Part shown: piece by piece, positions 3,919 through 26,879 of the stretch
Layout: every line of letters begins with the position of its first letter
Position numbering within the stretch: the first letter of the stretch is position 1
NCBI GenBank assembly: GCA_003225465.1
Contig: QIAH01000393.1
Coordinates: 1 to 32,874, forward strand
Length of the DNA stretch: 32,874 bases
Reading direction: 5' to 3'
From: Acidobacteriota bacterium
Lineage (GTDB): Bacteria > Acidobacteriota > Terriglobia > Terriglobales > Acidobacteriaceae
The notes under the pieces: generated by a model
What the model saw: only the letters and a program-made list of their open reading frames with translations
What the model was told of the DNA's origin: nothing
Database searches by the model: none
Made by a program: the position numbers and the translations under genes

Positions 3919-6600
3919 ATGTTTCCCCTGGTTAGCTTTCAGTCCCGCATTTTTCGTGCCTCGTCAAGAAACCGACCTTCAACCGAGTTTTCGATCGTAC
4001 TCGGATTTCTTCTAATCGGATTAATAGCGCTTACCAGTGCATGCTCCTCGCTGAATGCTGGCACACCCTCCAGTGCGACCAGTAAGCCCGCGCAGCCGAT
4101 CGCGATGTCCGCAAAGCTGCCGCCAGCGACCGTGGGCAGTGTATACCGCGCCGTGATCGCCGTAAGTGGGGGAAGCGCGCCCTACAGTTTCTCGATTCGC
4201 GCAGGGAAACTTCCTCTCGGCCTCAATATCAATGGTGTCACGGGATCGATTTATGGCCTGCCGATGCACGCGGGCACTTATGCATTCGTGATCGCGGTGC
4301 TGGACAGCAAGCACACCGCAGAGGGACTGCAGAAGTTTGCTTTGACAGTGAGCGAGCTCTCAGCGGCCCAAAATGCGGTCCAAGTCGCGATTGCACCAGC
4401 AACTCTTACGTTAGCGGCCGGCGGAGGCCACCAGTTCGCCGCCCAAGTTTCCAATACCAGCAATCACGACGTCGCATGGTGGGCATCTGCGGGGAAGATC
4501 ACTACCGCAGGCTATTTCACTGCGCCGACTGTCAACGCATCTACAAGAGTTCAGCTGGTGGCGAGCAGCAAAGCGGATACCAGTAAGCGCGCATACGCGT
4601 ACGTAGATGTGACTGCGGTCCCCGCATCATCATCATCATCAACCCCTCTGGCGATGACAAGCGCGCCTCTACCCCAGGCAACAGAGGGTGTGCCCTACTC
4701 TGCCGGCCTGCGCGCTACGGGTGGGAATACGCCTTACCGCTGGAAGATCGCAGCTGGTTCTCTGCCTTCCGGCTTCTCGTTTGACGCAACCGCAGGAAGC
4801 ATTAATGGAACCGCCAGCCAGAGTGGCTCGTTCCCCTTGACGATTCAGGCAGCCGACACGGCTGGGCATACCGCTTCTCAACAGTTCGCCATCAACGTGT
4901 TGCCTGCCGCGAACGGAAATTTCGACGGTCCGGCTGAGCTTCCGCGCGTTTACGTGAAAAGCTCATTGGCGGATACCCCAGCTCCGGGCAATCCTCACAC
5001 CGTAGCCACGATGGCTGGCCTGCAGTCCGCACTTGGTTCCGCCCGCTGTGGGGACACCATCCTTTTGCAGGCCGGTGCCACCTTCCAGGGCACCGTGGTG
5101 CTACCCGCCAAAAATTGCGACGACAATCACTGGATCATCCTTCGCACCAGTGCACCTGATAGTGCTCTTCCACCCGAAGGAACGCGGCTTACGCCTTGCT
5201 ATGCGGGCGTAACTTCTCTCCCGGGACGGCCGAGTTTTGCATGCTCTTCATCCCGAAATGTGCTGGCCAAAATCGCGTTCGCCGGCACCGGTAGCGGTCC
5301 CATTATCCTCGCCGACGGCGCCACTCATTATCGACTGATCGGCCTAGAAATCACCCGCAGTGCTCCAAAAGCCCTTGTCTACAACCTGGTCATCAACCAG
5401 AGTGGAGGCACCACCGATCACATCGTCATTGACCGCTCCTGGCTTCATGGGACAGCGCACGACGAAACGCAACGCGGGGTAGCCCTGGTTGGCAGTACTA
5501 ACTTTGCCATCGTCGATTCCTTTTTCACTGATTTCCACTGCATCGCGGTCTCAGGGGCTTGCGGGGACTCGCAGGCGATTGCTGGTGGCCTCGGCGACAA
5601 GACTATGGGCCCTTACAAGATCGTCAACAACTATCTCGAAGCGGCTGGCGAGAACATCATCTTTGGTGGCGGCGGGGCAACCCGTACTCCTGAAGACATC
5701 GAGATTCGCCACAATCACTTCTTTAAACCTCTCATTTGGATGAAGGGGACGCCCGGGTTTGTGGGCGGACAAGACGGGCACCCTTTCATCGTAAAAAACC
5801 ATCTTGAGTTCAAGAACGCTGCTCGTGTGCTGGTCGAAGGCAACGTCATGGAGAATTCCTGGGGAGGCTTCTCGCAGTTTGGCTTCTCCATTCTGCTCAC
5901 GCCAAAAAATCAGAATGGCAATTGCCCTCTGTGTGTTTTGCATGACGTGACTATCCGTTATGGCACCATCTCCAATGTCGGCAATGGCATCACGGTTGGC
6001 AACGGGATCTCCGATTCCGGCGCCGTGTCTCTGGGCGCATGGAACGAGAGCATTCACGACCTCGTCATTACTCACGTGAATGCAAAAACCTACAACGGAG
6101 GCGGCCACCTCTTCCAGGAAAGCAATAACAACGAGCAGAATCCGATTTACAACGTGGCCATCAGTCACGTCACCGGTATCGGCGACCCAACCGCTGCCAT
6201 GCTGGTGCTCGGCAATGCTCTGAACAAGCCCCTTGCCGGTTTCAGCTGGACCAACAACATCCTGGCCGTGACGTCCGACGGCATCACCACAACCGGAGGC
6301 GGCGCGGCCAACTGTGCCTACCCTGGCTTTGGGGGTGGCCCCGCGGGCAAGCTTGATCGCTGCCTCAAAAGCTACGATTTTTCAGGGAATGTGCTGATCG
6401 GAAATAGTGGACCGTGGCCGAAAAACAATCCTACCCCAGCCACCTTGGCGAACGTCATGTTCTCCAGTTCTAATCTGAGCCTTCTCCGAAGCCTGCAACT
6501 TCTACCCGCCAGCCCCTTCTCCAGTGGAGGTACCGACGGTAAGAATCCAGGCGCGGACATTGCTGCGGTTCAGGCCGCCATTTCTGGAGTGGCTCCGTAA
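3919..6600 (+). CDS. exported Ig-like/parallel beta-helix surface protein, lipoprotein-like
   Basis: The protein has 893 aa. A membrane segment (FSIVLGFLLIGLIAL) leads to TSAC, close to a lipobox, so it is probably an exported lipoprotein. Next come a putative-Ig (He_PIG-like) domain at about 60-147 with PYSFSIRAGKLPLGLNI, a bacterial Ig-like domain at about 153-235, a Ser run, a second He_PIG-like domain at about 245-330, and a parallel beta-helix region from about 335 to the end (repeated short strands such as HIVIDRSWLHG, DIEIRHNHFFKP, RVLVEGNVMEN). Its helix half is clearly paralogous to the gene at 9087-10871, sharing FDGPAELPR, DFHC.AV.G.C.DSQ.IAGG, FGGGGAT and a PGAD..AV.AA..GV tail. 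Beta-helices often bind or cleave polysaccharides; no catalytic residues could be assigned. ATG 3919 follows GAGG at 8 nt (GTG at 3916 is the track start). It is convergent to the EPS block. Confidence 0.85.
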   Translation: MFPLVSFQSRIFRASSRNRPSTEFSIVLGFLLIGLIALTSACSSLNAGTPSSATSKPAQPIAMSAKLPPATVGSVYRAVIAVSGGSAPYSFSIRAGKLPLGLNINGVTGSIYGLPMHAGTYAFVIAVLDSKHTAEGLQKFALTVSELSAAQNAVQVAIAPATLTLAAGGGHQFAAQVSNTSNHDVAWWASAGKITTAGYFTAPTVNASTRVQLVASSKADTSKRAYAYVDVTAVPASSSSSTPLAMTSAPLPQATEGVPYSAGLRATGGNTPYRWKIAAGSLPSGFSFDATAGSINGTASQSGSFPLTIQAADTAGHTASQQFAINVLPAANGNFDGPAELPRVYVKSSLADTPAPGNPHTVATMAGLQSALGSARCGDTILLQAGATFQGTVVLPAKNCDDNHWIILRTSAPDSALPPEGTRLTPCYAGVTSLPGRPSFACSSSRNVLAKIAFAGTGSGPIILADGATHYRLIGLEITRSAPKALVYNLVINQSGGTTDHIVIDRSWLHGTAHDETQRGVALVGSTNFAIVDSFFTDFHCIAVSGACGDSQAIAGGLGDKTMGPYKIVNNYLEAAGENIIFGGGGATRTPEDIEIRHNHFFKPLIWMKGTPGFVGGQDGHPFIVKNHLEFKNAARVLVEGNVMENSWGGFSQFGFSILLTPKNQNGNCPLCVLHDVTIRYGTISNVGNGITVGNGISDSGAVSLGAWNESIHDLVITHVNAKTYNGGGHLFQESNNNEQNPIYNVAISHVTGIGDPTAAMLVLGNALNKPLAGFSWTNNILAVTSDGITTTGGGAANCAYPGFGGGPAGKLDRCLKSYDFSGNVLIGNSGPWPKNNPTPATLANVMFSSSNLSLLRSLQLLPASPFSSGGTDGKNPGADIAAVQAAISGVAP

Positions 6601-6612
6601 TCCGTTCGAAAC

Positions 6613-6665
6613 CACGAACCGGGCTTTGACATCGCTCTTAAGCGCTTGCCATAGCCCGGTTCGTG
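6613..6665. terminator. 13-bp perfect hairpin between convergent genes, likely bidirectional terminator
   Basis: CACGAACCGGGCT (6613-6625) pairs exactly with AGCCCGGTTCGTG (6653-6665). A smaller hairpin, CGCT-CTTA-AGCG, sits in the 27-nt loop. It begins 12 bp after the stop of the beta-helix gene and lies about 100 bp past the end of the oppositely oriented EPS block. There is no clean U-run, so a terminator or mRNA-end role is inferred from position. Confidence 0.6.
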
Positions 6666-6761
6666 CCTGTCCCCTTGCCTTCGACGCGGGTATTTTCACC
6701 TTCTTCTACACAGTTCTGCTTCAGACGCGAAGGGTTCGGGTGCGTGGGAGGCGACCACTAG

Positions 6762-8711
6762 TTACGGGGCTGATGCTGCGTGTTGCTGCTGGCTGGTCTC
6801 GACCTTTAGAACCCGCCAGCGCTTTGCGCCTTTCACTTCGCTCCAAACCTCAACGGTCGGGGCCAGGACTTGCACAACTTTGTGCATGCCCGGCGCGTTG
6901 TCTTTCTCCGAAACCGCTTCAGCGATGAAATCAATACGATGTTCCTGAAGAAACTGGGAGGTGATCGGACCTTGCACTTCGAAATCCGCGACCACCCGGT
7001 TTGTAAGTTTCTCACCCGCTAATGAGAAATTGGCCTCCTCGATTCCTGTATCGTTTAAGACGCCTGCGCCGCGAGGCAGCTCATCAAAGAAATGAGGATA
7101 AACATACACATCACACCTTCTCCAGGCGTGACTGCGCGCCCTGGCCGCAAGCTCTCTGAGCGGCACGAACAGCGAAATCGTGCAGGTTGCAACAACACAG
7201 GCTACCAGTAAAAACCGGAACCCTCGCGTCGCGGACCGGTCGAGCAACTCAAACAACGGCACCGCGAACACGCATCCAAGGAGCCATAATGGCAGCCCGA
7301 ACCGCGGCATTCTCTGCAGCCCTATCCACCATAGAGCAAGCAGCCCGAGCCCTACGGGTATCAGAATCCGCAAAATTGGTGCGCCTCTTCCCCGCACCGC
7401 CTGGTATCCAGCCCAAAAAATTCCGAGCGGCACAAACGCCGCAAACGCCGCTCCCAGCCCGCTACCTTCGCTATAAGGAATGAGTTGGTCCCCGGGATTG
7501 CGGAACCATTCCGTCCAGGGATAGATCAACCACTCCGCGCGCCGGCGCACAAATTTGTCACTGAACTCGTTGTGTGTAATTTCAGAAGGCGCAAACCCCT
7601 GGAACAATACGTGAGTCCCCACCTTGACCTGAAGAGGGAACACCGGGTTGTGCGTCTGCACGAAACCTCGGCCAAACCAGAATAAGCTGGGAACCAGCAC
7701 AGCCAGGGCAAACAAACATATTCCGGCCAGCGACGCCCGCCAGTGTCGCCCGCTTTCCCAAATCAAAGTCACGGCGACGCCCACGCACAACACGGCGGCA
7801 TACACATAAAACACCGGCTTGGTACCCACCGCAAGCCCGCATGCCAGCCCGGAGAGTAACAACATACGAGCCGACGAACGAGTCGGCCCATTGAAGGCCG
7901 TTGTCTTCTCCAGCGCGGGCTCTCTCCGGTATAGAAACAAAGCCAGTGAGGCCAGAAGAAATGCTGTCCCGAACAAATCAACGTAGGCCGAGAACGTTTG
8001 AAACTCGACAATTGGAAGGCTGAGGGCCACGATTGCAGCCGCCATGGCAGCTACCCGTCTGCGCGTCATCCAGCGCCCAATCAGGTAAACCGCCCCTGTC
8101 ATGGTAAGCGCGGCGAACAAGTTCACCGACGGCACCAGCCACTGCCGGCCCGTGCTCAGCAGCAGCATCATTCCAATTTCCGCATTGCCCGGCAAGGCGT
8201 ACTGCCAAGAACCGTACGTTGGAATGCTCATCGTGCCGGTCTGTATCCAACGCAACGCGACCGGCAGATGATAGGCCAGCGCATCCCAACCCGTAGGATA
8301 CGAACTCGCGAGATTTGCATAGAAGACTGCGTACGAAGCGGCGAGGACGCCGGTGCAAACCCAGAGATACGCCGGGAAACTGTCTTTCCAGTTTTGTTCC
8401 GCTCCGAGGGGAACCGGTTGATCTGACCTTGATACTCCCTTATCGTGATGCGCAGTCACGAGCCGGGAACTGCCAAGGACACACAGCACCAGGATCAACA
8501 GCTGCGCAGCCGCCAAAGGCCACAGCCGGATCGCCGAAATCCATCCCGCCATCTGCAAGGCCGCCGCGACATGCACCGGCACAATTACAAATGCGGCCCA
8601 CAACACCATGGCCGCGAGGTAACGCACCATGCGCGTCGATACCGTCCTGAAAAAATCACTCGCGAGCCATGCCGAACATGCCGAAGCCAACAGATAAAGG
8701 CCAGCCGCCAT
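6762..8711 (-). CDS. GT-C fold membrane glycosyltransferase (PMT/ArnT-like)
   Basis: This large integral membrane protein has about 649 aa and 11-13 predicted helices. After the first helices, the loop SSYPTGWDALAYHLPVALRWIQTG carries an acidic residue followed by YHLP. That arrangement is typical of the first periplasmic loop of GT-C enzymes, which use polyprenyl-phosphate sugars. A soluble C-terminal part (about 540-645) follows the last helix. The likely role is to add a sugar to the EPS repeat or to a protein on the outer face of the inner membrane. The track starts at TTG 8723; I chose ATG 8711, which follows GGGAATAGGG. It is the last gene of the long minus-strand EPS block and starts 21 bp after the small membrane protein gene, so the two are probably coupled. 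Confidence 0.8.
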   Translation of the reverse strand: MAAGLYLLASACSAWLASDFFRTVSTRMVRYLAAMVLWAAFVIVPVHVAAALQMAGWISAIRLWPLAAAQLLILVLCVLGSSRLVTAHHDKGVSRSDQPVPLGAEQNWKDSFPAYLWVCTGVLAASYAVFYANLASSYPTGWDALAYHLPVALRWIQTGTMSIPTYGSWQYALPGNAEIGMMLLLSTGRQWLVPSVNLFAALTMTGAVYLIGRWMTRRRVAAMAAAIVALSLPIVEFQTFSAYVDLFGTAFLLASLALFLYRREPALEKTTAFNGPTRSSARMLLLSGLACGLAVGTKPVFYVYAAVLCVGVAVTLIWESGRHWRASLAGICLFALAVLVPSLFWFGRGFVQTHNPVFPLQVKVGTHVLFQGFAPSEITHNEFSDKFVRRRAEWLIYPWTEWFRNPGDQLIPYSEGSGLGAAFAAFVPLGIFWAGYQAVRGRGAPILRILIPVGLGLLALWWIGLQRMPRFGLPLWLLGCVFAVPLFELLDRSATRGFRFLLVACVVATCTISLFVPLRELAARARSHAWRRCDVYVYPHFFDELPRGAGVLNDTGIEEANFSLAGEKLTNRVVADFEVQGPITSQFLQEHRIDFIAEAVSEKDNAPGMHKVVQVLAPTVEVWSEVKGAKRWRVLKVETSQQQHAASAP

Positions 8712-8732
8712 CCCTATTCCCAATCTCCCTGG

Positions 8733-8882
8733 TTAACGTACTAGTTTATGGGCGGTTTGTTCGATCGCTAGCAGCAGATTTCGCACCGCAAAGCTGTGCA
8801 CCAGCCAGACGAACGCGCTCGCGCAAGCGATCCCGAGCAAGATCTGCGCCCGCCGACTTTCTTGAGGCTGCTCCGGTGGCAT
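8733..8882 (-). CDS. small single-span membrane protein (49 aa)
   Basis: This ORF is absent from the supplied track. It reads MPPEQPQESRRAQILLGIAC… and ends …EQTAHKLVR. A charged N-terminus is followed by one hydrophobic helix (about 13-39, ILLGIACASAFVWLVHSFAV…) and a short basic tail, which predicts a single-span inner-membrane peptide. An ideal ribosome site, AAGGAG, lies 8 nt upstream of the ATG. It ends 21 bp before the GT-C gene start, which suggests co-translation. It may be a small partner or stabiliser of the glycosyltransferase; that is inference. I know no family for it. Confidence 0.6.
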   Translation of the reverse strand: MPPEQPQESRRAQILLGIACASAFVWLVHSFAVRNLLLAIEQTAHKLVR

Positions 8883-8962
8883 CGATGGATCTCCTTCACT
8901 GTTCGCAACCCGCTCAAGCTGACCTAAGCCCGGATGTTAACCAACTCGCGATCAGATGGACA

Positions 8963-9001
8963 GCATACTCATGGATGCCAGCCAGTCGCATCCAGCCATG
9001 C
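8963..9001. other. imperfect hairpin in the 204-bp gap downstream of the second beta-helix gene
   Basis: TGGATGC (8972-8978) pairs with GCATCCA (8988-8994) around a 9-nt loop. GCAT (8963-8966) and ATGC (8998-9001) can extend the stem with internal loops. It is the main structure in the gene-free stretch 8883-9086. With no U-run on the minus strand, it could be a processing or attenuation site inside the EPS transcript rather than a full terminator. Confidence 0.35.
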
Positions 9002-9086
9002 AATAGCAGGTAGCAAAAAGGAGATTGTTATGGTTGTGAGAGAGTCGGCTGCGCCGTGACGGGGAGGAGTGCTCATGGAGTCAAAC

Positions 9087-10871
9087 TTAATCAACCCCCG
9101 CGGTGGCGGCGTTCACAGCGTCCACATCCGCTCCTGGGTCCTTTCCTCCGGGACTCGCTCTCGCGAAGGCTGGTGCCTTCTTGCAATGGGACTGGCCACC
9201 ACGACACAGTCGATAGTTCCCGTTCTTCCCGCCCTGAAAATCTTCCACTACCGAGGACGGATCCCCGGCATAAAAATTTCCTGCCGGCCATCCCTTCGAC
9301 GAAGCGATAAAAACGTTCCGCGTCACCGCGGAATCCTCGAAGCACTTGCTCACGACACCAGCCGGGCCTTGTGCGCGCGGTTGAAACGCGCAATTCGCGG
9401 GTCCGCCCCCGGTTGGGAATATCTCCTGTTCTCCCACTCCGACCAGGTTGTCCGTAAACTCAAAATTCGGGATTCTCCGGTCCACTCCCGCACCCAGAAT
9501 GAAAAGGGTCTTCGGTGGGAAGGCTGTGTTGTGAGCAATACGAATGTCTCGCAATGTCGGCACCGTCGAACTCACCTGCGCAAACGCGCCAAACCCACCG
9601 TAATCCTTACCGCTAATGTCGTTGAATATATTGTCGTGAATGCTGTAACGCTCTCCACCGCTCGAGGCACCGCCCGCATCCGACAATCCCGTGCCCATTT
9701 GCATCCCGCTCGCCATATGACTGATGCGGTTGAAACGAATCACCACATCCGTGGTCTTGCAGATGGGGCAGTGGTTCTGCTGGTTCTTCGGCGTTAATAG
9801 AATCGCGAATCCCGTCTGGCTAAAACCGCCCCAGACATTTTCCATGATGTTGCCTTCAACCAATACCCGTTGAGCGTTTTTCAACTCGAACAGATTTTTG
9901 ACGATGAACGGTTTTCCTGAGGCGCCACCGACGAAGTTCGCAGCTCCCGGCCTCCAAGTCAGCGGCTTAAACATATGGTTGTGCCGGATCTCGATGTCCC
10001 CCGGTGTGACGGTCGCGCCGCCTCCCCCAAAAATCAGGCTTTCCCCGGCTGCTTCCAGAAAATTGTTGACGATCTTATAAGGCCCTCCGTCGTGGCTACT
10101 GGTGCCGCCCGCTATGGTCTGCGAATCCACGCAACTCCCCGTGACGGCCACACAATGAAAGTCATTGAGGTAGGAATCCACTACTGCCACGAACTGGCTG
10201 CCGCCCAGTGCTACGCCCCGCGTGGTTTCATCTTGCGCCGTGCCGTGCATCCATACCCGGTCAAACACGATGTGGTCGGCACCTTCGCCGGGAAGCAGCA
10301 CCAGATTGTAGACAGTCTGGCCCGGCACAGCGCGGGTAATCTCGAGGCCAATGAAGCGATAGTGATTCGCTCCCGGGGCGAAGCTGAGGGGGCCGCTTCC
10401 TCCCTTCTTATCAAAAACAATCTTTGCCATCACATTCGCCGCAGACGTACACGGGTAAGCCGGCCTTCCCGGCAAGGATGCCACCGCCGCATAGCAGGGA
10501 GTGATGCGTGTTCCCTCCGCCGGAAGATCCTTGTCGGGCGCACTGGTGCGTAGCACGATCCAGTGTGCGTCATCGCAGTGTTTTGCCGGAAGAGTGAAGT
10601 TCCCGGCGAATTCTGCGCCGGCTTGGAGGCGAATCGTATCCCCGCAAGCCGCCTTCTCGATCGCTGCGCCGAGTTCCCCAGAATTCTTCACCAGGATCGA
10701 CTTACCAGGTGTGGGCGTATCCGATAACGCCGTCTTTACCGATTGCCGAGGCAATTCCGCTGGACCATCGAACCGGCCGGGGTCAGCTTTTGCCTGCGCC
10801 CAAATCGAAACGCAACTCGAGAAAGAAAATAGCAGCAGGAAGAAAGCCTTATGAACGCCACAATTACGCAT
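9087..10871 (-). CDS. secreted parallel beta-helix protein, paralogue of 3919-6600
   Basis: This protein of about 594 aa begins with a classical signal peptide (MRNCGVHKAFFLLLFSFSSCVSIWAQA, cut near AQA). The rest is one parallel beta-helix domain that aligns along its whole length with the helix half of the lipoprotein at 3919-6600: FDGPAELPR start, ETTRGVALGGS, YKIVNN.LEAAGE, FGGGGAT.TP.DIEIRHNH.FKPL.W, GGFSQ.GF.ILLTPKNQ, and a PGAD..AV.AA..GV tail. It lacks the Ig-like domains. The track ORF runs to 11066, but those first 65 codons translate the repeat at 10905-10958. ATG 10871 has GGAGG just upstream and opens the signal peptide. Being inside the EPS block suggests an EPS-binding, lyase-like or epimerase-like role. 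No catalytic residues could be assigned. Confidence 0.85.
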   Translation of the reverse strand: MRNCGVHKAFFLLLFSFSSCVSIWAQAKADPGRFDGPAELPRQSVKTALSDTPTPGKSILVKNSGELGAAIEKAACGDTIRLQAGAEFAGNFTLPAKHCDDAHWIVLRTSAPDKDLPAEGTRITPCYAAVASLPGRPAYPCTSAANVMAKIVFDKKGGSGPLSFAPGANHYRFIGLEITRAVPGQTVYNLVLLPGEGADHIVFDRVWMHGTAQDETTRGVALGGSQFVAVVDSYLNDFHCVAVTGSCVDSQTIAGGTSSHDGGPYKIVNNFLEAAGESLIFGGGGATVTPGDIEIRHNHMFKPLTWRPGAANFVGGASGKPFIVKNLFELKNAQRVLVEGNIMENVWGGFSQTGFAILLTPKNQQNHCPICKTTDVVIRFNRISHMASGMQMGTGLSDAGGASSGGERYSIHDNIFNDISGKDYGGFGAFAQVSSTVPTLRDIRIAHNTAFPPKTLFILGAGVDRRIPNFEFTDNLVGVGEQEIFPTGGGPANCAFQPRAQGPAGVVSKCFEDSAVTRNVFIASSKGWPAGNFYAGDPSSVVEDFQGGKNGNYRLCRGGQSHCKKAPAFARASPGGKDPGADVDAVNAATAGVD

Positions 10872-10962: not shown

Positions 10963-13152
10963 TCATTTTGCCTGTCGTACGGCGACGCTGGTTTCGCTTG
11001 CTTCTCCGAGGCCATTCCCTGCAAGCCAGTCCGCCATTCGGCCAACATTGTCGTCGCTCGTGTCAAGTTCGAGTGCCGCCTTCACCTCTTCGTAGTGCTC
11101 GCGCACGAACTGAAGCTTCTGCACCATATCGGCCGCGCTGGTATCAGAATAAGTGACCACTCCCGCAGGCCGGCGCCCGTTCTCGCTGGCAACCACTGGT
11201 ACGCCCAGCGCTAAGGACTCCAGCACCGAAGCCGCAACCCCGTCACAAGCGGGTGTCCTCAAGTATACGAAGCACCTGCTCAACAGAGTGAGGAACTGGT
11301 CATGCATGAGATTCCCCAACAGCAGCAAGCTCGCACGCTCCTCTTCTGACCATCCTCTGACGAACTCCTCGGCAGCGGCCATCTCTTTGCCAGGAAACCC
11401 AAGCCAGATATATCCGGCTTTAGGGTCCTGCTCCCGATATCGCCTCATTCCCTCGCGCAAGATCTCCAGCCTGTATTCCGGACGGAAGGAGACGTACGAA
11501 AGGAATACTCGAGAATGGTTCTGGAGAAAGCTCTCGATCTGCTCGCCTAAATTCACGTGAGAGAACTCCAGGTACTGCGGTGAAAACGTCGCGATCGACC
11601 GCACCTTCTCCGGATTAATCCCGTACTGCACAATCGCATCCTGAATCGGCTCACTGTCGCATGCGATCTCCCCCGCCAGCTGAAAAAGTGCGTGAAACGC
11701 AACCTGCGCGAGACTCCGGTCATTGCGCGGAAAATAGTCCTGGGAGAGTCCTCCGTGAAATGTCACCTGTGCAGGAAGGTTTACCGCCCGCCCGGTCAGC
11801 GCTGTTGCCAGAGCCAGCAGATATCCTTTCTTCGACATACCGTTGACGTGCACATTCAACCGGTAACCGCGAAGAGCGTAGGACCAGATTTTCTTCAGGA
11901 AGTCGGCCCCACCCTGCACATCCACGTACTCCGGGCTCTTGATTTGCCGCCCTTCGTTGATCTTCAGCACTTCACAAATGTGACCACGGCGCCGCAACTC
12001 CTCCGCCACCAGCTTCAACTGCATCGCCCAACCGCACATGGGAGGCGGATAGTTTCCGATCTGGAGAATTCGAACTGGACCTTCCAGCCCATCGCCGGAA
12101 TGCGTCGAGTCTTCGCCCCCCAAGCTGAGGTCCAGGTCGCGGCTCGAGAACCAACGGCCGAGCGGAGTCTTTGTCTTCAGCATCAGCTTCGAGCTGAAGT
12201 ACGCATCGTAAATGGCCCGCATCCTTGCCGAGCTGGCCGAAGCCACAGTTTTGGCGTGTTCCGCCCCGACCCCGTAACCCAGAGACTCCAGTGTCCCGCC
12301 GATCAGTTCCTCGACATCCTCCAATTGCTGCCCTGACAGAGATGTTTTCCAACGGGCCACCGGACGGAACTCTCCAGAACCTGCCTCCTTGCCAAAAGAA
12401 CTGTTCGGCCGGCTTACCGAGCCAATTCCAACCCGCTGAATCTTGGCGTAGTCCAATTCCTGCCCGATGAAGTCTCCAATACCCGCCAACACCTCTTGCG
12501 GACTTTGCACCAGATCTTCGTAGTGGATCTCTTTGTAATCCGCTCCCAGCGCTTTGCCGTTCTCACGACCTTTGTTTATCACCCATTCCCAATAGAGCGC
12601 CGCCGCCTGAAGTTCCTTGCCGCGATCCCACGGCAGAGGTCGAATCCAGTGCTGCCTCTCGAGCGAAAGCGCGACGTCCCGGCCATCGCGGATGATGTGG
12701 ATCACCAGGGCATCGGGTATCGTTTCTTTGATCCGTTGCATAGCCAGAAGATGATCCGGCGTACAGTCAGCCCACCGTTCCATTCCCTGCTTGCGGCCCA
12801 TGGCATCCATGACGATGCGCAGGAAATCGCCCCCATTTCCGCAGTTCGCCATGACTTCTTTTTTAAGCTCGACCGCATCCAGTCCGGTTTTTGTGAAGAG
12901 GCTGCTGTGTTCCCAGGCCTCCAGCAGCGCAGCCTTGTTGCGGTCCACCCGCAGATCACCAAAGCGCGGTTCCAGCAGATTGAACACCTGCGATTCCGCC
13001 CGGTACACGACAAAATTTCCAGCCGACAACAGCATGTGGTAAAGCAAGGTCGTGCCCGAGCGCGGACACCCCAGCACGAAAACCGGCGCCTTGCTGCGCG
13101 AACTCGCCCACGAGGTTTTGTCTAGGCCAATCGTTGTCTCGGTGGTTTCCAT
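10963..13152 (-). CDS. sulfotransferase-glycosyltransferase fusion protein
   Basis: This 729-aa protein has two enzymes in one frame. Residues about 22-325 form a PAPS-dependent sulfotransferase: the 5'-phosphosulfate loop is VFVLGCPRSGTTLLYHML (about 24-41) and the 3'-phosphate site is IIRDGRDVALS (about 153-163). After a short hydrophilic linker (about 326-357), residues 358-700 form a GT-B glycosyltransferase. It opens with VRILQIGNYPPPMCGWAMQL and carries the family 4 type donor-site pattern GVAASVLESLALGVPVVAS (about 638-656). The reading frame is continuous with no stop or frameshift at the join. It lies 36 bp after the AsnB stop in the EPS block. The likely role is to add a sugar and a sulfate to the EPS repeat unit in the cytoplasm. 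The sulfotransferase fold could instead have another acceptor; that part is uncertain. Confidence 0.85.
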   Translation of the reverse strand: METTETTIGLDKTSWASSRSKAPVFVLGCPRSGTTLLYHMLLSAGNFVVYRAESQVFNLLEPRFGDLRVDRNKAALLEAWEHSSLFTKTGLDAVELKKEVMANCGNGGDFLRIVMDAMGRKQGMERWADCTPDHLLAMQRIKETIPDALVIHIIRDGRDVALSLERQHWIRPLPWDRGKELQAAALYWEWVINKGRENGKALGADYKEIHYEDLVQSPQEVLAGIGDFIGQELDYAKIQRVGIGSVSRPNSSFGKEAGSGEFRPVARWKTSLSGQQLEDVEELIGGTLESLGYGVGAEHAKTVASASSARMRAIYDAYFSSKLMLKTKTPLGRWFSSRDLDLSLGGEDSTHSGDGLEGPVRILQIGNYPPPMCGWAMQLKLVAEELRRRGHICEVLKINEGRQIKSPEYVDVQGGADFLKKIWSYALRGYRLNVHVNGMSKKGYLLALATALTGRAVNLPAQVTFHGGLSQDYFPRNDRSLAQVAFHALFQLAGEIACDSEPIQDAIVQYGINPEKVRSIATFSPQYLEFSHVNLGEQIESFLQNHSRVFLSYVSFRPEYRLEILREGMRRYREQDPKAGYIWLGFPGKEMAAAEEFVRGWSEEERASLLLLGNLMHDQFLTLLSRCFVYLRTPACDGVAASVLESLALGVPVVASENGRRPAGVVTYSDTSAADMVQKLQFVREHYEEVKAALELDTSDDNVGRMADWLAGNGLGEASETSVAVRQAK

Positions 13153-13188: not shown

Positions 13189-15165
13189 CTAGCGCGCAGG
13201 CACTCCTGGCGCAACGGAAGGTGGCTCGGTCATCGCTGTGGCAGAACCCCGGCTCATGTCTGTCGACGCGATCCTCGGCGCGGTCGCCGTCCCCCGGCTT
13301 GCTCCTGCTTCCATGAAATTCCTGTGCCACAATTCCAGCACCAGCATGCGCCACAAAATCCCGGAACGATTCCGCCTTCCGCGCGTATGTTCATCGATCA
13401 AGGCACGCACAGCATCGGGTTTAAAGTAGCCGCGCTGCAAGGTGCGCTCCTCGAGCAGCACCCTGAGATACTGATCCTTCATGCTGTCGCGCATCCATTC
13501 GACCAGCGGCAACTGGAAACCCTGCTTGCGCCGATGCAGCAGTGCAGGCGGGATCCCGAGTCGCTCCGCCAACTTCTTCAAAATGAATTTCCGAGTCCCG
13601 GTACGGAATTTCCAATCGACCGGCAACGCTGCCACCCACTCCACGAACTCATGATCCAGCATCGGAACCCGCACCTCAAGCGAGGTTGCCATGCTCATTC
13701 GATCCACTTTCGCGAGAATGTCCGCGGTCAAGTAGGTTTTGGTATCGAGATAGAGCAAGCGGCTCAACGAGTCCTTGGCGGGCGCGTGGTCGTAGTAGTG
13801 CTGCCACTGCTCCAGCGGATTCGGCAGATGTTCGGCGGCTCGCAGGAAATCCTTCGAGAAAAGGCTCCTCTCCCGGTGCAGCACGGGCAGGTAGGAAACG
13901 TCATCCAGATAACGATCCCGCGCCGTCAACGACGCGTTCCAGGCGAGATTCTTTCCAAACATGCCGGCAGGCACCCGGTGGTGCACTTGATCCCGATAAA
14001 TCCTGCCCAGCCAGTTCGGGATGCGGTCAAACTTTCTCCGCTCCATCGCAACCAGGTAGCGGTCATATCCGGCAAATAACTCGTCGCCTCCGTCTCCCGA
14101 CAACGCCACCGTCACATGCTGCCGCGCCATCCGGCTTACGTAGTACGTCGGCAACATCGAGGAGTCGCCGAAAGGCTCTTCCAGCATTCCGGAAAGAAAC
14201 GTCAGCGTCTCTTCAAGATTGGGATTCAGGATTAATTCATGGTGATCTGTCCCGAACCTCTCAGCCACCAGTCGCGCGTACTCTGCCTCATTGAATTTTT
14301 CCGCTTCGAAACCAATCGAGAACGTCTTCACCGGCTGCGAAGTCACCCGCGCCATCAACGCAACGATGATGGAAGAATCAACTCCACCGCTGAGAAGCGC
14401 GCCCAATGGCACGTCGCTGATCAGCCGGATCCGGAGCCGCCGCTCCAGTTCCTCCAGGCAATCCTCTTCCGACATGGCCGCCTGCGTCCCATATTCCGGT
14501 AAGTCCCAAAATTCGCGAATGCTGGTTCGGCCGTTGCCGTATTCCATCAGGTGACCGGGCGGCAGTTTGTGGATGCGTCGAAAAGCGGTGTGTGGATCGG
14601 GAATGTATCCAAAGTAGAAATATTGCAGCAGCCCCTCAGGGTTCACTTCCGCAAGTTCAGGAGCCACTGCAAGGATCGTCTTGATCTCTGAGCCAAACAG
14701 CAGACGTCCCTGATGCACGGCGTAGTGCAAGGGCTTTTTTCCTAAACGGTCGCGCGCTAGAAGGAGCGATTGCCGCCGTTCGTCATACAAAGCGATCGCA
14801 AACATGCCGCGTAGCTTCTTGACGCAGTCCGCCCCCAACTCCTCATAGAGATGAACGATGATTTCGGTGTCGGTATGCGTGTAGAACTTGTGGCCGCGTT
14901 GTTCAAGCCCACGCCGCAGTTCTGGAAAATTGTAGATTTCGCCGTTGTAGACGATCCAGATGCTTTTGTCTTCGTTGTGGATGGGCTGGTGGCCACCGGA
15001 CAGGTCAATAATGCTTAGACGCCGCATTCCCAGGCCAACTGGGCCCTGGGCGTAGATGCCCTCATCGTCCGGTCCGCGGTGCACGATGCTCTGACACATC
15101 CGGTGCACCTGAGCGGCTTCCACCTGCTCGTCGGGCCGCCCGACCATTCCGGCTATTCCACACAC
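13189..15165 (-). CDS. asnB: AsnB-type glutamine-dependent amidotransferase (exosortase/EPS-locus type)
   Basis: This 658-aa class II glutamine amidotransferase has the asparagine synthetase layout. The N-terminal Ntn domain begins MCGIAGMVG, so Cys2 becomes the nucleophile after Met removal, and it carries HRGPDDEG and YNGEIYN. The C-terminal synthetase domain has the PP-loop LLSGGVDSSI and the later SGDGGDELFAGYDRY and KVDRMSMATSLEVRVP motifs. All key residues are present. It starts at GTG 15165, overlapping the methyltransferase stop by 13 bp, so the two are coupled. AsnB homologues in polysaccharide loci are thought to amidate uronic acids or other sugar acids rather than make asparagine. 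I infer that role from context. The last ~40 residues are a Pro/Ala/Thr-rich tail. Confidence 0.92.
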   Translation of the reverse strand: MCGIAGMVGRPDEQVEAAQVHRMCQSIVHRGPDDEGIYAQGPVGLGMRRLSIIDLSGGHQPIHNEDKSIWIVYNGEIYNFPELRRGLEQRGHKFYTHTDTEIIVHLYEELGADCVKKLRGMFAIALYDERRQSLLLARDRLGKKPLHYAVHQGRLLFGSEIKTILAVAPELAEVNPEGLLQYFYFGYIPDPHTAFRRIHKLPPGHLMEYGNGRTSIREFWDLPEYGTQAAMSEEDCLEELERRLRIRLISDVPLGALLSGGVDSSIIVALMARVTSQPVKTFSIGFEAEKFNEAEYARLVAERFGTDHHELILNPNLEETLTFLSGMLEEPFGDSSMLPTYYVSRMARQHVTVALSGDGGDELFAGYDRYLVAMERRKFDRIPNWLGRIYRDQVHHRVPAGMFGKNLAWNASLTARDRYLDDVSYLPVLHRERSLFSKDFLRAAEHLPNPLEQWQHYYDHAPAKDSLSRLLYLDTKTYLTADILAKVDRMSMATSLEVRVPMLDHEFVEWVAALPVDWKFRTGTRKFILKKLAERLGIPPALLHRRKQGFQLPLVEWMRDSMKDQYLRVLLEERTLQRGYFKPDAVRALIDEHTRGRRNRSGILWRMLVLELWHRNFMEAGASRGTATAPRIASTDMSRGSATAMTEPPSVAPGVPAR

Positions 15166-16166
15166 TGCGCGACCCCCGCGGTTTCTCGTGCCGAATTTTC
15201 GCGTTGTACTGGCGGCCGGGTCCCCTGCACCGCAATCGGCTGTTCGATCACTCGCAAATCCTGTAATCCGCAGCTTTCGAACCAGCGGAAGACTTCTTCA
15301 TAGGTATGTTTGGACTGATACCAAGGCGAATACCAGTCGAAGGTGTCCAGGACACGCCAGGTCGCGTCCTTGTTATGAGACATCGGGATTGCCCACGCCA
15401 GCGCGCTGCTGGCAGGTTTCCCGACCAGCGGAACCTTCTTCAGAACCGAATGGACCCCATACAGGGGCACCACAACTTTGCACAGCCGATGTAGTTTCTC
15501 CGGAGCCATGCGCCGGGTCCACTTGCGATAGACGTCGCTCATCCGGTACCAGGGGTTGTAAGAACTGTATAGCCAGATTGCGATACGTCCACCCGGTTTT
15601 AACAGTTTGGGAAGCGCCTTGAAGGCCTGTTCGCAATCCGGAGTGTGATGCAGGACGCCAATGCTATAGATGTAATCGAAACTTTCAGGAGCAAACGGTA
15701 ACTTGAAAACATCCGCCTGGAAGATCGTCGCGCTTCGATCCGCCAGATTTTTGGCTGCCACTTCCGAAGCCAGGCTCAGATCAATCCCAACCACGTGCGC
15801 CCCCCACCGCGTCGCCACTTCCGCGAATCGCCCCATCCCGCAGCCCACATCGAGCACAAGTTTGCCGGCAAGATCTTCCGGGCGAAACCCGGTACGTCTC
15901 CGGAACGCTCGCTCCGATCTCTGGCTGCTGGCATCATCCAACTGGGTTCGCGAGTAAAGCTTCCATTGAAAGCCAAAGCTCCCCGCATAGTTCTGCGCGT
16001 CCACAAAACGAAGCACGCCATTGAGCAGTGGATACTCTCGCCCGCACTGAAGGCACACCAAACCGCCCGCGCCCGAGGCCAGTCCGCCTTGGCAGTCAAG
16101 ACAACCGAGAATCGCTAGGACTTCTTCACCGACTCCAGGCAAGTTCACGTTCTCTGTTTTCGCCAT
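15153..16166 (-). CDS. SAM-dependent methyltransferase with N-terminal zinc-ribbon (Trm112-like) region
   Basis: This protein of about 337 aa has an N-terminal region with two Cys pairs (GCLDCQGG and CLQCGREYP), a small zinc ribbon as in Trm112-like fusions. A class I methyltransferase core follows with motif I VLDVGCGMGRF, acidic GIDLS, ADVFKLPFAPESFDYIYSIGVLHHTPD and LLKPGGRIAIWLY. The last third is an EPS-locus type extension. It probably methylates a sugar or lipid-linked glycan. The start is uncertain: the track uses GTG 16205, and ATGs lie at 16202, 16190 and 16166. I chose 16166 (MAKTENVNLPG) because it leaves the shortest overlap (41 bp) with the upstream gene; no candidate has a strong ribosome site. 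It is coupled to AsnB downstream. Confidence 0.85.
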   Translation of the reverse strand: MAKTENVNLPGVGEEVLAILGCLDCQGGLASGAGGLVCLQCGREYPLLNGVLRFVDAQNYAGSFGFQWKLYSRTQLDDASSQRSERAFRRRTGFRPEDLAGKLVLDVGCGMGRFAEVATRWGAHVVGIDLSLASEVAAKNLADRSATIFQADVFKLPFAPESFDYIYSIGVLHHTPDCEQAFKALPKLLKPGGRIAIWLYSSYNPWYRMSDVYRKWTRRMAPEKLHRLCKVVVPLYGVHSVLKKVPLVGKPASSALAWAIPMSHNKDATWRVLDTFDWYSPWYQSKHTYEEVFRWFESCGLQDLRVIEQPIAVQGTRPPVQRENSARETAGVAQCVE

Positions 16167-17493
16167 ACCCAAGTTTTTCCCGACTGCCATTTTGGGGATC
16201 ATCACTCGCCGTGCTCGTTACCTCCGCAGGTTTGGAGGCAATTCGGGAGAGCGCGCAGATATAACCCACGATGAAATAGGGGAACAAGTTGTACTCCGTC
16301 GAGGCAAACAGCGCACCTGCTGCGTAGCCTGCCAACGCGGCCCACAACGCGCTGGTCCAGATTCGAATCTCAGGATCGGTCTTGTACCCCGGCAACTTGT
16401 ACACCCGCTTGATGCGACCCATCGAAACGAACAACAACGCGAAAAAAAGACCAAGGGCTGGGATCCCTCCCTCCGCTCCGAGTTCCGTATACGTGTTGTG
16501 CACCACGCGCCACTCTTCCGTGATGGCCGGGAAGTTTCCGGGGCCCACCCCAAAAATCGGGTGATGCAACATCAGGCTTATGCTCTCCTTCAGTAGTGCC
16601 GTGCGCTGCTCCAACGACCCTTCTCCATGCGCCTCCATGCTCCCTTCGGAAAGAGAGCTGGCGCCAGGCCGTTGAAACAGGCTTGCCATGCGCGACCGGT
16701 ATTTCGGAGATGCGACCAATCCTCCCAACGCGAGCACTCCGAGAATCATAGTGACGCCCAATAGCATGAACCGGCGCCCTTTCACTCCAAACTCCCACAA
16801 GCAGACCATGGCCGTGATCATCATCGCGATCATCCCGCTGCGCGAGTAAGTGGCCACCACCCCGACCAGCAAGCAGATCAGCGCGAACGACCACAATAAC
16901 TTCCGCATGCCTCCCTTGGAGGCGAACATGAAGGCCATGCACAAGGGGAAATTGATGGCAATATTGATCGCCAGGTCATTGGGGTTCTCGAGGATCCCCT
17001 TTTGGATCCCCATGAGTCGTCCGTCCTCGGTGTGGTGCACGATCAGCGACGCAATTGTAACGATCGCCACCGCCGAAGCCTGAATGTAGAGGAGCCGCCG
17101 CAGCCAGCTGATCTTCGTGACCACCAGCGATATCAAAAGCGCAATGATCACGCCCTTCGAAAACTTGTTGATGACCGTGTCAAACGCTCCTCCCCTCCAG
17201 AACGCGGTGGGGATCGTCAGAAGCAGGTGCGCCAGCAGAAAAAGAAGAATCTTGCCCTCGAGCGGGATTTTTCCTCGTTCTGTCCGCTTGACTCCGAAAA
17301 TAAGAGCTGCCAGCGCGATTCCCCCCGCGATCTTTCCTAATGGCACATACGTCAGTCCAGGAATGAAGTCTTCCGGACGAAAGAAGTAGACCACCGAGAA
17401 AAATACCAGCGCTCGATAAGCGAGCGTAGCTCGGGGCGTCTGAGCAGGAGCCATGACCCAGCCGGATTCTTGAAATTGCAGTTGCGTGCTCAT
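16126..17493 (-). CDS. O-antigen ligase/Wzy-like polymerase, exosortase-locus type
   Basis: This polytopic membrane protein has 455 aa and about 11-12 helices. It carries the Wzy_C-type periplasmic loop with the patterns RTALLKESISLMLHHPIFGVGPGNF and VHNTYTELGAEGGIPAL (catalytic-loop His and HN.Y…E.G signature). A pair of Arg/Ser residues in TYSRSGMIAM also fits the family. It is either the EPS polymerase (Wzy) or an O-glycosylation ligase; exosortase loci carry both kinds and sequence alone does not separate them. It is the only such protein in the window, so polymerase is more likely. It starts at ATG 17493, 60 bp after the GT2 stop. Confidence 0.87.
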   Translation of the reverse strand: MSTQLQFQESGWVMAPAQTPRATLAYRALVFFSVVYFFRPEDFIPGLTYVPLGKIAGGIALAALIFGVKRTERGKIPLEGKILLFLLAHLLLTIPTAFWRGGAFDTVINKFSKGVIIALLISLVVTKISWLRRLLYIQASAVAIVTIASLIVHHTEDGRLMGIQKGILENPNDLAINIAINFPLCMAFMFASKGGMRKLLWSFALICLLVGVVATYSRSGMIAMMITAMVCLWEFGVKGRRFMLLGVTMILGVLALGGLVASPKYRSRMASLFQRPGASSLSEGSMEAHGEGSLEQRTALLKESISLMLHHPIFGVGPGNFPAITEEWRVVHNTYTELGAEGGIPALGLFFALLFVSMGRIKRVYKLPGYKTDPEIRIWTSALWAALAGYAAGALFASTEYNLFPYFIVGYICALSRIASKPAEVTSTASDDPQNGSREKLGYGENRERELAWSR

Positions 17494-17553
17494 AATTGAC
17501 TTAAATGCCTTCCTGCTTTGCCGGCCATCAAGCCGCCATCGGCCCCTGCGCTG

Positions 17554-18675
17554 CTATCGAGTCCAGGCTACTTTCCGTCTCGCTACGAAGTTCGCAAACG
17601 CCACCATTGCCGCCGTATTCAAGACCACAAATGTGAAGGCCGCATCCCCGGCTCGCGCGATCGGTCCCATTTTTACGCGCGCCATCCCGATCAGGCTCAA
17701 CCCGTAAAACGCCAACTGCAGGAAGAAAGCTCCCCGGTAAAAATGCTGAGGCAGCAAAGCCGACGCCAGCAGGGCGGCCAGAAGAGCGAAGGGAACGAGC
17801 AGTCGCAGGATTTTGTGACTGATGAATTCGAGTCGGATCGGGTTCGCCCTGCTCCATAGCCATGGCATCATCTGCAACAGCTGATAGTTGCCACTCAGCG
17901 TGCGCACCTTCCTCGCGAACTCTCGTTCCGCGCCCAGGTCGGGAACATCCCACGCCCGCGCCCGCGGCTCGAAAACCACCCTCTTACCTGCCTTCACCAC
18001 CTGCATCGGAATAAACACATCATCGAGCAGCGTCTCGGGCGGCACCGCCGGCAGCAATTCGCGCCGAACCCCGTAAAACGCCCCGGTCGCGCCCACCACC
18101 GACCCTGACGCCGATTCCAGTTCCCGCACGATCTTTTCAATTCTCCAGTACAAGCCCATCCCCTGGCTCTTCTCACCGGCGCTGGAATCACCCAGCATCA
18201 GCTCGCCGCTTACGCAGCCCACCTGCGGATCCGCAAAGTTGCTCAGCAAAACCTGCAGGCCAGTCGGTTCGATCTGTTGCCGCGCATCGGTGAAAATCAC
18301 AATCTCCCCGTGCGCAATATTGAAGGCATCATTCAAGCCGGATGCTTTTCCGCGCGAAAGCTGATTCAATACTCCATGCACGTTGGGACGCCGTGCATAC
18401 TCCCGGAGGATAGCTTCCGTGCGGTCCGTCGATCCATCCGACACTACGATGATTTCGATCTGGTCCTCCGGATAGCTCAGCCCCAGAAGATTTTCGAGCT
18501 TCCGCTCGAGCACGCCTTCCTCGTTCCGCACCACCATCACAACCGAGACGAATGGCTGAACCGATCCCAACAGCACCGGCATCGGACTCAGGCGGCACCG
18601 CAACCAGAGCCATAGCGGATATCCCGCGTACGTGTACCCGATCAGCGCGACGGCTCCCCAGAATACCCATGTCAT
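17554..18675 (-). CDS. family 2 glycosyltransferase, membrane-anchored
   Basis: This 373-aa GT-A enzyme has one N-terminal helix (about 4-24), the catalytic domain (about 40-270) and three C-terminal helices (about 290-365), the layout of processive or EpsL/IcaA-like GT2 proteins. The motifs are VSVVMVVRNEEG, VVSDGSTDRT (nucleotide site), IFTDARQQ in the place of the usual DxD, and LLDDVFIP near the acceptor site. The track ORF starts at 18960, but the first 95 codons shadow the upstream gene. ATG 18675 overlaps the sugar transferase stop as ATGA, a sign of coupling. Its likely role is to add a sugar to the lipid-linked EPS unit at the cytoplasmic face. Confidence 0.9.
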   Translation of the reverse strand: MTWVFWGAVALIGYTYAGYPLWLWLRCRLSPMPVLLGSVQPFVSVVMVVRNEEGVLERKLENLLGLSYPEDQIEIIVVSDGSTDRTEAILREYARRPNVHGVLNQLSRGKASGLNDAFNIAHGEIVIFTDARQQIEPTGLQVLLSNFADPQVGCVSGELMLGDSSAGEKSQGMGLYWRIEKIVRELESASGSVVGATGAFYGVRRELLPAVPPETLLDDVFIPMQVVKAGKRVVFEPRARAWDVPDLGAEREFARKVRTLSGNYQLLQMMPWLWSRANPIRLEFISHKILRLLVPFALLAALLASALLPQHFYRGAFFLQLAFYGLSLIGMARVKMGPIARAGDAAFTFVVLNTAAMVAFANFVARRKVAWTR

Positions 18676-20045
18676 TGCGCGCCTCGGCCCAGCAGGACGA
18701 TCTTGATCGTCTGGAACATGATCAGAATGTCCAGACCGAGAGACGCATTCTTGATGTAGAACAAGTCGTACTGCAGCTTTTCCTTGGCGTCCTCGACGGT
18801 ATTGCCGTACTTGTAGCGAACCTGCGCCCAGCCAGTAATCCCGGGCCGCACGGCGTGGCGCACGCCGTAATAAGGAATTTCCTTGCTGAGCCACTCCACA
18901 AATTCCGGACGCTCCGGCCTCGGTCCCACAAAAGCCATGTCGCCCTTGAACACGCACCACAACTGCGGAATCTCATCGATGCGCGACATTCGCAAAAATT
19001 TCCCCACCCTGGTAATTCGAGGATCATCGTCGTCTGCCCAGGTCGGCCCGGTATCGGCCTCCGCGTCTTGCCGCATCGTGCGGAACTTGTAGCAGTAGAA
19101 GTTGTGGCCGGCGCGTCCCACTCGCTTCTGCCGGTAAAGCACCGGCCCCCTGGAATCCAGCTTGATCGCCAGGATCACGAATGGCAAAACGGGCAGCACG
19201 ACAATCAGCAGGGTGAACGCCATCAGTGTCGACAGCGCTCGCCGCATCAGGTTGAAGCTCGTGCTGAACCGGAAGCCGTCGGCGAAAATCAGCCAGCTCG
19301 GATACAGCTGTTCAACTTCAATCCGCCCCGAGATCTTTTCCAGCCACGAAGTCGCTTCCTCGATGCGTGCGCCATTCAGTCGCAACTGCAGCAATTCTTG
19401 AACCGGAAAAGTTCCGCGGCGATCCGGCATGGCCACGATCACCCGGTGCACGTGATGCGAGGCTGCTATTTCCATCAAGTGGGCCGCGACCGATTCGCGC
19501 GTCAGCGCGCCCTCCACGTTCCCGCTCCAGCCGATGACGTCGATTCCCAATTCCTTCCGCTGCCGCAACCCGAGCACCAGTCGTTGCGCGCGCTCGCCCG
19601 TTCCCAGGATGTAGACCTTTTCCTGCATGAAAGCCTGTTGCACAAGCCACCCATAGGCCGCGCGCCAACCCACCAATCCCATGGTCAGCAGCACCAGGGC
19701 AATCAGCGAGGCATTGTTCCCGGGCAGGACATACGGGAAGAAGTAGCCGACCACCGCGAGGAACAGCGCGAACAGGCCGGGTACCAGGAACAGACGGAAG
19801 TACATTTCGCCCTTGGCGTCAAACTGGGCTGAGTCGTACAGGTCAAACCAGTGGGAGCAGATCAGCACGACCAAGGTTGCGACCAGCACCTTCACATACC
19901 CGTACTGGTAGTTCAGTACGATGTAGCGATCGTCCGGGAACGCCAGCAACACGCCCAGCAGAAACGACAGGAATACCACCGTCGTCTCCACCGCCAGCAG
20001 CACCAGCGTGCGGACCGGGTAGTAGACATTGAACAGTCGGATCAC
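18672..20045 (-). CDS. polyprenyl-phosphate sugar-phosphate transferase (EPS-initiating, EpsB/WcaJ type)
   Basis: This 457-aa protein begins glycan assembly by moving a sugar-1-phosphate onto undecaprenyl phosphate. Four N-terminal helices (to about 125) and a nucleotide-binding-like domain (VYILGTGERAQRLVLGL) precede a fifth helix (about 265-285) and the bacterial sugar transferase domain. That domain has YRQKRVGRAGHNFYCYKFRTM, RMSRIDEIPQLWCVFKGDMAFVGPRPERPEF and PGITGWAQVRY, so the catalytic core is intact. The layout and length match the sugar transferase usual in exosortase/PEP-CTERM EPS loci. It starts at GTG 20045, 12 bp after the kinase stop. Confidence 0.93.
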   Translation of the reverse strand: MIRLFNVYYPVRTLVLLAVETTVVFLSFLLGVLLAFPDDRYIVLNYQYGYVKVLVATLVVLICSHWFDLYDSAQFDAKGEMYFRLFLVPGLFALFLAVVGYFFPYVLPGNNASLIALVLLTMGLVGWRAAYGWLVQQAFMQEKVYILGTGERAQRLVLGLRQRKELGIDVIGWSGNVEGALTRESVAAHLMEIAASHHVHRVIVAMPDRRGTFPVQELLQLRLNGARIEEATSWLEKISGRIEVEQLYPSWLIFADGFRFSTSFNLMRRALSTLMAFTLLIVVLPVLPFVILAIKLDSRGPVLYRQKRVGRAGHNFYCYKFRTMRQDAEADTGPTWADDDDPRITRVGKFLRMSRIDEIPQLWCVFKGDMAFVGPRPERPEFVEWLSKEIPYYGVRHAVRPGITGWAQVRYKYGNTVEDAKEKLQYDLFYIKNASLGLDILIMFQTIKIVLLGRGAQ

Positions 20046-20057
20046 AGGTCGCCCTTG

Positions 20058-21961: not shown

Positions 21962-21970
21962 ACTGGTCGC

Positions 21971-23530: not shown

Positions 23531-23572
23531 TGCCGTGTTTCCATTCTGGCTACCTTCCCCGGTAGCCTTGAA

Positions 23573-25033: not shown

Positions 25034-25040
25034 GCGATCA

Positions 25041-25664: not shown

Positions 25665-25677
25665 TTCCTCTCCTGAA

Positions 25678-26643: not shown

Positions 26644-26834
26644 ATTGGCTCTACTTCATCTGCAGGGGAATAACGCCAGTGAGTCGGATGTTGTTTGCTG
26701 CCGCCTATGGAGCAAGGGTACTGCCATCCGCGGAGGGAGAAGTTCAATCGTGTGCCTAACAACCATCTTCAATGTTTGCAATAGATTGGAACGTCCAAAC
26801 GATCCGTGCGGCCACCCCAGCAACCTGCGCGTAG

Positions 26835-26857
26835 CCTACAACATAACCGAATGTAGG
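26835..26857. promoter_or_regulatory. inverted repeat CCTACA-11-TGTAGG upstream of the EPS block
   Basis: CCTACA (26835-26840) and TGTAGG (26852-26857) are exact complements 11 nt apart, about 190-215 bp upstream of the regulator start. It may be an operator for the EPS block; no regulator is assigned. Confidence 0.35.
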
Positions 26858-26873: not shown

Positions 26874-26879
26874 TCTAAG

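Follow-up and report, generated by a model that had tools for sequence, protein, structure and literature searches.

A paired family of predicted beta-helix proteins linked to acidobacterial exopolysaccharide loci and also carried by phages

Acidobacteria are major soil bacteria, and their exopolysaccharides (EPS) are barely known. The window analyzed here, the whole stretch of 32,874 nucleotides, contains a block of EPS genes with two similar genes, P0001 and P0002, at its end, and the question raised by the locus is what their products do with the polymer. The original prediction described them as paralogous parallel beta-helix proteins that may represent an uncharacterised EPS lyase, epimerase or binding family. 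The features of the two genes and of the surrounding block are the following.

3919–6600, + strand: P0001, the long paralogue, 893 aa, with lipobox, three Ig-like modules and beta-helix (ORF and translation; long homologues among 39 aligned host proteins)
3919–4044, + strand: signal segment of P0001 with terminal lipobox LTSA-C, Cys42; predicted lipoprotein (pattern only)
4090–4908, + strand: three Ig-like modules of P0001, at about 4090–4359, 4375–4623 and 4639–4908 (Pfam He_PIG, AlphaFold2 blocks and linkers, Foldseek Ig and cadherin matches)
4909–6597, + strand: beta-helix domain of P0001 (alignment to P0002, AlphaFold2 model)
5713–5814, + strand: invariant segment NHFFKPLIW...KNHLEFK of P0001 (sequence alignment)
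6762–8723, – strand: multi-span GT-C-like membrane protein between the paralogues (position and sequence only; no Pfam match)
9087–10871, – strand: P0002, the short paralogue, 594 aa, with signal peptide and beta-helix (ORF, AlphaFold2 model)
9090–10784, – strand: beta-helix domain of P0002, pLDDT 96.2 (AlphaFold2 model)
9879–9980, – strand: invariant segment NHMFKPLTW...KNLFELK of P0002, proposed active site with K273, W277, K296, E300 and K302 in domain numbering (162-row alignment)
10794–10871, – strand: signal peptide of P0002, MRNCGVHKAFFLLLFSFSSCVSIWAQ (pattern)
10963–13152, – strand: sulfotransferase-glycosyltransferase fusion of the EPS block (Pfam Sulfotransfer_3, Glycos_transf_1)
13189–15165, – strand: AsnB-like amidotransferase, marker of the EPS locus (Pfam, co-occurrence)
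15153–31388: remaining EPS block with methyltransferase, Wzy, GT2, Wzx/PGT, tyrosine kinase, ExeA-like ATPase, Wzz, outer-membrane protein, Wza, regulator, AlgJ/MBOAT, EpsH exosortase and EpsI (Pfam for Wzy, conserved order in relatives, other names from sequence)

Both open reading frames were found where the two paralogues had been predicted, P0001 starting with an ATG at 3919 and P0002 with an ATG at 10871 that is preceded by GGAGGT. In BLASTP, residues 333–891 of P0001 and 32–593 of P0002 were identical at 297 of the 567 aligned positions (52%; 569 bits), which is far beyond chance. The common domain, originally estimated at about 530 residues, comprises 565, and all the conserved strings quoted in the prediction are present in the sequences. 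The paralogues also flank the gene at 6762–8723 as described, but the identity of this gene as a GT-C glycosyltransferase is unproven; like the putative outer-membrane beta protein encoded within the EPS block at 23573–25054 (– strand), it had no match in Pfam. The sulfotransferase and the GT4-like glycosyltransferase at 10963–13152 form one open reading frame in the window and are separate genes in relatives, e.g. in genome G092 (L045/L046).

The export signals of the two proteins differ. A lipobox (TSAC, residues 39–42) agrees with the predicted lipoprotein-like nature of P0001, and P0002 has a plain signal peptide; these signals, and the corresponding ones present in most relatives, were called by pattern and not by a trained predictor. 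Three Ig-like domains had likewise been foreseen in P0001. Pfam identified two He_PIG stretches in its N-terminal part and nothing else, the AlphaFold2 model (pLDDT 82.9) showed three beta-sandwich-like blocks ahead of the helix with low-confidence linkers between them, and Foldseek searches with this model returned Ig and cadherin repeat proteins. The PEP-CTERM signal of exosortase substrates (PEP motif, hydrophobic span and basic tail) was absent from both proteins, the C-termini of which follow the pattern GAD..AV.AA..GV and include no transmembrane span.

AlphaFold2 modelling of P0002 together with 92 relatives produced a right-handed parallel beta-helix with a mean pLDDT of 96.2 and a pTM of 0.95, in line with the fold originally proposed. 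According to DSSP the model has about ten coils with an asparagine at the short turn on several of them, as in the right-handed parallel beta-helix superfamily. One of these, N269, is a structural part of the Asn ladder and was present in all 162 aligned sequences (92 close, 54 distant and 16 phage copies). No Pfam model matched P0002, the generic Beta_helix model touched one of the 29 relatives scanned, and searches of NCBIfam and PDB sequences with the helix domain identified no enzyme family above threshold. The family is undescribed in the libraries searched. Within the library covered, the literature search found nothing relevant on the family or on acidobacterial EPS/exosortase loci, and no paper that brings exosortases or beta-helix proteins together with the EPS loci of acidobacteria. 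In the Foldseek search against PDB the nearest solved structures were mostly carbohydrate-active: the GH136 lacto-N-biosidase LnbX (E 1.8e-7), PL6 alginate lyases (E 2.6e-7), Pel9A, RbmB and AlgE4, all with query TM-scores of about 0.3–0.5 and 10–14% identity. Against viral models the search returned generic tailspike-type matches only.

The family was detected in 22 of the 200 genomes of the order at E ≤ 1e-10, and 21 of these had a full-length copy. The AsnB of the window (at about E ≤ 1e-180) was present in all these 21 genomes and in seven of the 179 others, while none of the 172 genomes lacking the EPS-locus AsnB had a copy of the family (Fisher p 8.6e-23 over 200 related and hence non-independent genomes, uncorrected for ancestry). 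The gene order of the relatives is collinear with that of the window, from AsnB through methyltransferase, Wzy, GT2, Wzx/PGT, kinase, ExeA-like protein, Wzz, outer-membrane protein and Wza to the exosortase. The seven genomes that have the EPS-type AsnB and no beta-helix copy indicate that the family is dispensable for the polymer. A scan of the whole GTDB found 68 loci, every one in MAGs of Acidobacteriota/Terriglobia.

The phylum-wide search detected distant copies in 28 genomes of other families, mostly full-length and with E-values from 1e-116 to 1e-35. An EPS marker was present within about 20 kb of 13 of the 20 distant-copy loci (28–40% identity) vs three of 20 random 20-kb control stretches of such genomes, and at least two markers were present at ten of the 20 loci vs one of the 20 controls; in the close group the latter was true of 18 of 22. 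It could be argued that the linkage merely reflects common descent of a single conserved region and that the role of the proteins is unrelated to EPS, since the sampled genomes are related, the Fisher value ignores kinship, and seven of the 20 distant loci had no EPS marker. We consider this highly improbable, because the link persists in other families of the phylum despite different gene orders and at 28–40% identity, and multiple markers are so rare in random stretches. Homologues scattered apart from EPS loci, the pattern expected if the original prediction were wrong, were not what the search found: copies in the order, and 13 of the 20 distant loci in the wider phylum, sit near EPS genes. 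The link between the beta-helix family and EPS loci is real, and the predicted tie of an uncharacterised secreted family to these loci is upheld.

The nature of the polymer is suggested by gene content. In the fuller locus of G092, genes for UDP-glucose dehydrogenase, heparinase II/III, polysaccharide deacetylase, an ATP-grasp protein and a sulfotransferase adjoin the pair, and in the genome of the window the dehydrogenase, the heparinase and a second AsnB are together on another contig (C162). This content suggests a uronic-acid-containing and possibly sulfated polymer. On C162 the UDP-glucose dehydrogenase (G000:C162:3290-4574; L244), alongside which the heparinase II/III and the second AsnB lie, is divided between two frames (query 1–209 and 220–441) by a frameshift or an assembly error.

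The alignment of 162 sequences located the most conserved part of the domain in a segment other than the one originally pointed out. W277, E300 and K302 were invariant, as was the basic character of position 273 (K/R in 162 of 162). K296 was present in 159, D/E220 in 161, E244 in 158, E248 in 152 (with Gln in nine) and K/R333 in 140. The string DFHC, the His, Asp and Cys of which had been proposed as the functional residues, varies across the family and was ruled out as the active site: H210 was kept in 75 of the 92 close, 17 of the 54 distant and 13 of the 16 phage copies, and C211 and C218 of the region were missing from the distant copies. We propose K/R273-W277-K296-E300-K302 as the putative active site. 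In the strand list of the predicted model three consecutive coils contribute E248, E300, K302 and K/R333, each on PB1 or at its end, W277 belongs to the loop that precedes PB1, and the cluster would accordingly line a groove.

The composition of the cluster bears on the chemistry. GH136/GH28/GH87-type hydrolases use an Asp/Glu pair. With LnbX of GH136 as the first Foldseek match, a glycoside hydrolase of such a type, acting on neutral or amino-sugar linkages, has to be considered, but the invariant cluster consists mostly of lysines, E300 is the only strictly invariant acid, and E248 is replaced by Gln in nine of the 162 sequences; we regard a hydrolase as quite unlikely. Lysine-based sites serve lyases and epimerases alike, the latter including AlgG/AlgE, and the cluster would suit a C5-epimerase or another in-chain modifier, which alters the polymer during export without cutting it, as well as a lyase. 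The epimerases share the fold class, AlgE4 was among the Foldseek matches, and the locus of the relatives has uronate genes. Yet AlgE4 ranked below PL6, GH136 and RbmB, the sole DPHE-like candidate, DFHC, is not conserved, and the gain to a phage is less evident if slime is epimerised than if it is cut, which makes an epimerase an unlikely candidate.

Many beta-helices are adhesins. A non-catalytic protein that binds EPS or tethers it to the surface, with the Ig modules as spacers and the helix as a lectin-like scaffold, would fit this and the lipobox and Ig modules of the long copy. That a small polar cluster stays strictly invariant throughout the phylum and its phages while overall identity drops to 28–40% is, however, more typical of catalysis, and one of the phage copies comes as a fusion with a deacetylase; a purely binding role seems very unlikely. 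Of the original choice between lyase, epimerase and binding protein the short list stands, and the lyase is now favoured over epimerase and hydrolase because the cluster is rich in lysine, the locus of the relatives includes uronate genes, and lyases are among the fold neighbours.

That the two proteins are exported enzymes acting on EPS appears to us very probable. In the more specific reading, to which we give somewhat more belief than doubt, P0001 and P0002 are secreted, EPS-processing beta-helix enzymes, predicted to be lyases, one anchored as a lipoprotein and the other free, i.e. two forms of one enzyme acting on the exopolysaccharide of their own locus. The polysaccharide chain would probably lie along the PB1 groove of the model, where the Lys/Glu/Lys/Trp cluster could act on a uronate-containing sugar, possibly assisted by E244/E248, D/E220 and K/R333 from neighbouring coils. 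Beta-elimination would be the most likely chemistry, followed by C5-epimerisation. The lipid-anchored, Ig-extended copy may be active at the envelope during export while the free copy trims or releases polymer outside.

The recurrence of the pair had escaped the original prediction, as had the spread of the family through the phylum and its carriage by phages. In 18 of the 21 copy-bearing genomes the family is represented twice within about 10 kb, as a rule by a long and a short copy; the exceptions are G135, G035 and G187. One of the 18 is G182, in which the long paralogue (L035:17532-19855) is frame-broken into ORFs of 334 and 440 aa. Mapping the long/short label on the tree needed 9 changes vs 13 in shuffles, and the pairs of G118 and G103 were within-genome sisters with a support of 100. 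On these grounds, at least 8–9 changes being needed, a descent of the long and the short copies from two ancient orthologous groups was rejected; possession of two copies, one of them Ig-extended, has evolved on more than one occasion. The repeated origin suggests that an anchored and a free copy are useful together. The sister pair of G118 (L071/L072, on G118:C8) is located away from EPS markers, its neighbours including a CHAT-TPR protein and a protein that matches a tail-spike PHROG; on the tree this pair clusters with phage copies.

The carriage of the domain by phages was the unexpected part of the findings. A scan of IMG/VR detected it on 16 uncultured viral contigs at 35–44% identity, while GenBank phage genomes gave no match. 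Where neighbouring genes could be named, the contigs proved to be those of phages, with genes for portal and major head (L194/L210), terminase and portal (L203/L212), DNA polymerase (L204), helicase and primase (L205/L215), major head (L211) and a virion structural protein (L208), and a terminase was found in five of the 16 records. All 15 phage copies with an intact N-terminus had a signal-like segment (for L209 this was judged by eye; L195 is a near-copy of L194). As all 15 look signal-bearing, the phage proteins are probably not tailspikes, which are virion proteins without a signal peptide. On the tree the phage rows fell into at least two separate groups, L194 and L195 being placed inside the EPS-locus clade.

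A third copy in the assembly of the window (G000:C250) grouped with the phage protein L208; it adjoins a terminase large subunit, and a polysaccharide deacetylase domain is joined to it in one protein. It lies on an 11-kb phage-like contig binned with the genome (L004:1-11236; terminase large subunit phrog_2, E 3e-19), where a protein of 1613 aa combines beta-helix, polysaccharide deacetylase and family domain and has a neighbour of 1425 aa without PHROG match. Among the soil phage contigs L194–L209, some copies have very long N-termini (L201, 1503 aa) or repeats of the PKD or InlB type, and neighbours of 700–930 aa matched neither PHROG nor Pfam. Searches did not confirm a GH-like domain that visual inspection had suggested for the N-terminal part of the L201 protein. 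One phage contig carrying the beta-helix gene also encodes a glycosyltransferase (L214:4255-6120, – strand; phrog_28745, E 7e-39).

Phages of these bacteria appear to share the gene and to have the infected cell secrete the phage-encoded copy, which would act on the host slime. More broadly, though we hold this only tentatively and with rather more doubt than belief, host and phage may have in common a new family of polysaccharide-active enzymes specific to acidobacterial slime: the bacteria would keep anchored and free copies in the EPS locus, the phage copy would be exported via the host Sec system to cut or remodel slime within the infected population, and genes would have moved between the two. 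An EPS-tied family that is spread across the phylum and has an invariant, catalytic-looking cluster provides a direct handle, as the identity of the polymer could be read from its breakage by one expressed protein. The signal-bearing phage copies raise the testable question of whether slime is handled from inside by secretion, besides from outside by tailspikes.

Among known systems, tailspike depolymerases resemble the phage copies in being phage-encoded beta-helices that probably degrade slime. Tailspikes are assembled onto virions in the cytoplasm, whereas the phage copies of the family start with signal peptides, and P0002 matches no PHROG family. AlgG and AlgE, the mannuronan C5-epimerases, are likewise beta-helix enzymes with a uronate exopolysaccharide of the producing cell as their substrate, and AlgE4 was found by fold; no sequence similarity was detected, and their DPHE/DPHD-type motif is not conserved in the family, the closest string being DFHC with H210 in 17 of the 54 distant copies. 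LnbX of GH136 (5gqc) was the first Foldseek match by E-value and is similar in length, but it is only 10% identical to P0002. It is a hydrolase with acidic residues, a gut enzyme of host glycans, and is found outside EPS loci.

The PL6 lyases (chondroitinase B, AlyGC, Pedsa0632; Pfam PF14592) resemble P0002 in fold and have a similar N-terminal cap. The profile comparison was marginal (E about 0.01 to PL6 chains; hhalign E 1.4e-4 and probability 52% over the N-terminal half only), and the PF14592 profile matched neither P0002 nor anything else in the genome of the window. The catalytic Lys (ExE..xKS) and Arg (RHG, on the next coil) of PL6 did not align with the family motif, the expected pairing ranking 100 of 460 windows in a sliding profile alignment. 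The similarity seen by eye between KNLFELKNAQRVLVEGN...ILLTPKN and EIISLKS...RHG of PL6, with K302 as the PL6 lysine, was dropped by the same ranking. As the comparison was marginal and the catalytic motif was not recovered, the family is kept out of PL6. PL6 genes of the phylum were also considered as a comparison set, and only one (L143) was found, with no counterpart in the viral-contig scan.

A further parallel is RbmB of Vibrio cholerae, a VPS lyase that acts on the producer's own biofilm polysaccharide (PMC11637428; PDB 9ozl, 9ozd). RbmB differs in sequence (10–14% identity) and in length (about 360 residues vs 565) and is not a lipoprotein/soluble pair with Ig modules. It ranks among the best structural matches (target TM-score up to 0.60–0.63) and is a beta-helix lyase tied to the Wzy-type biofilm polysaccharide of its own organism, as P0001 and P0002 are proposed to be.
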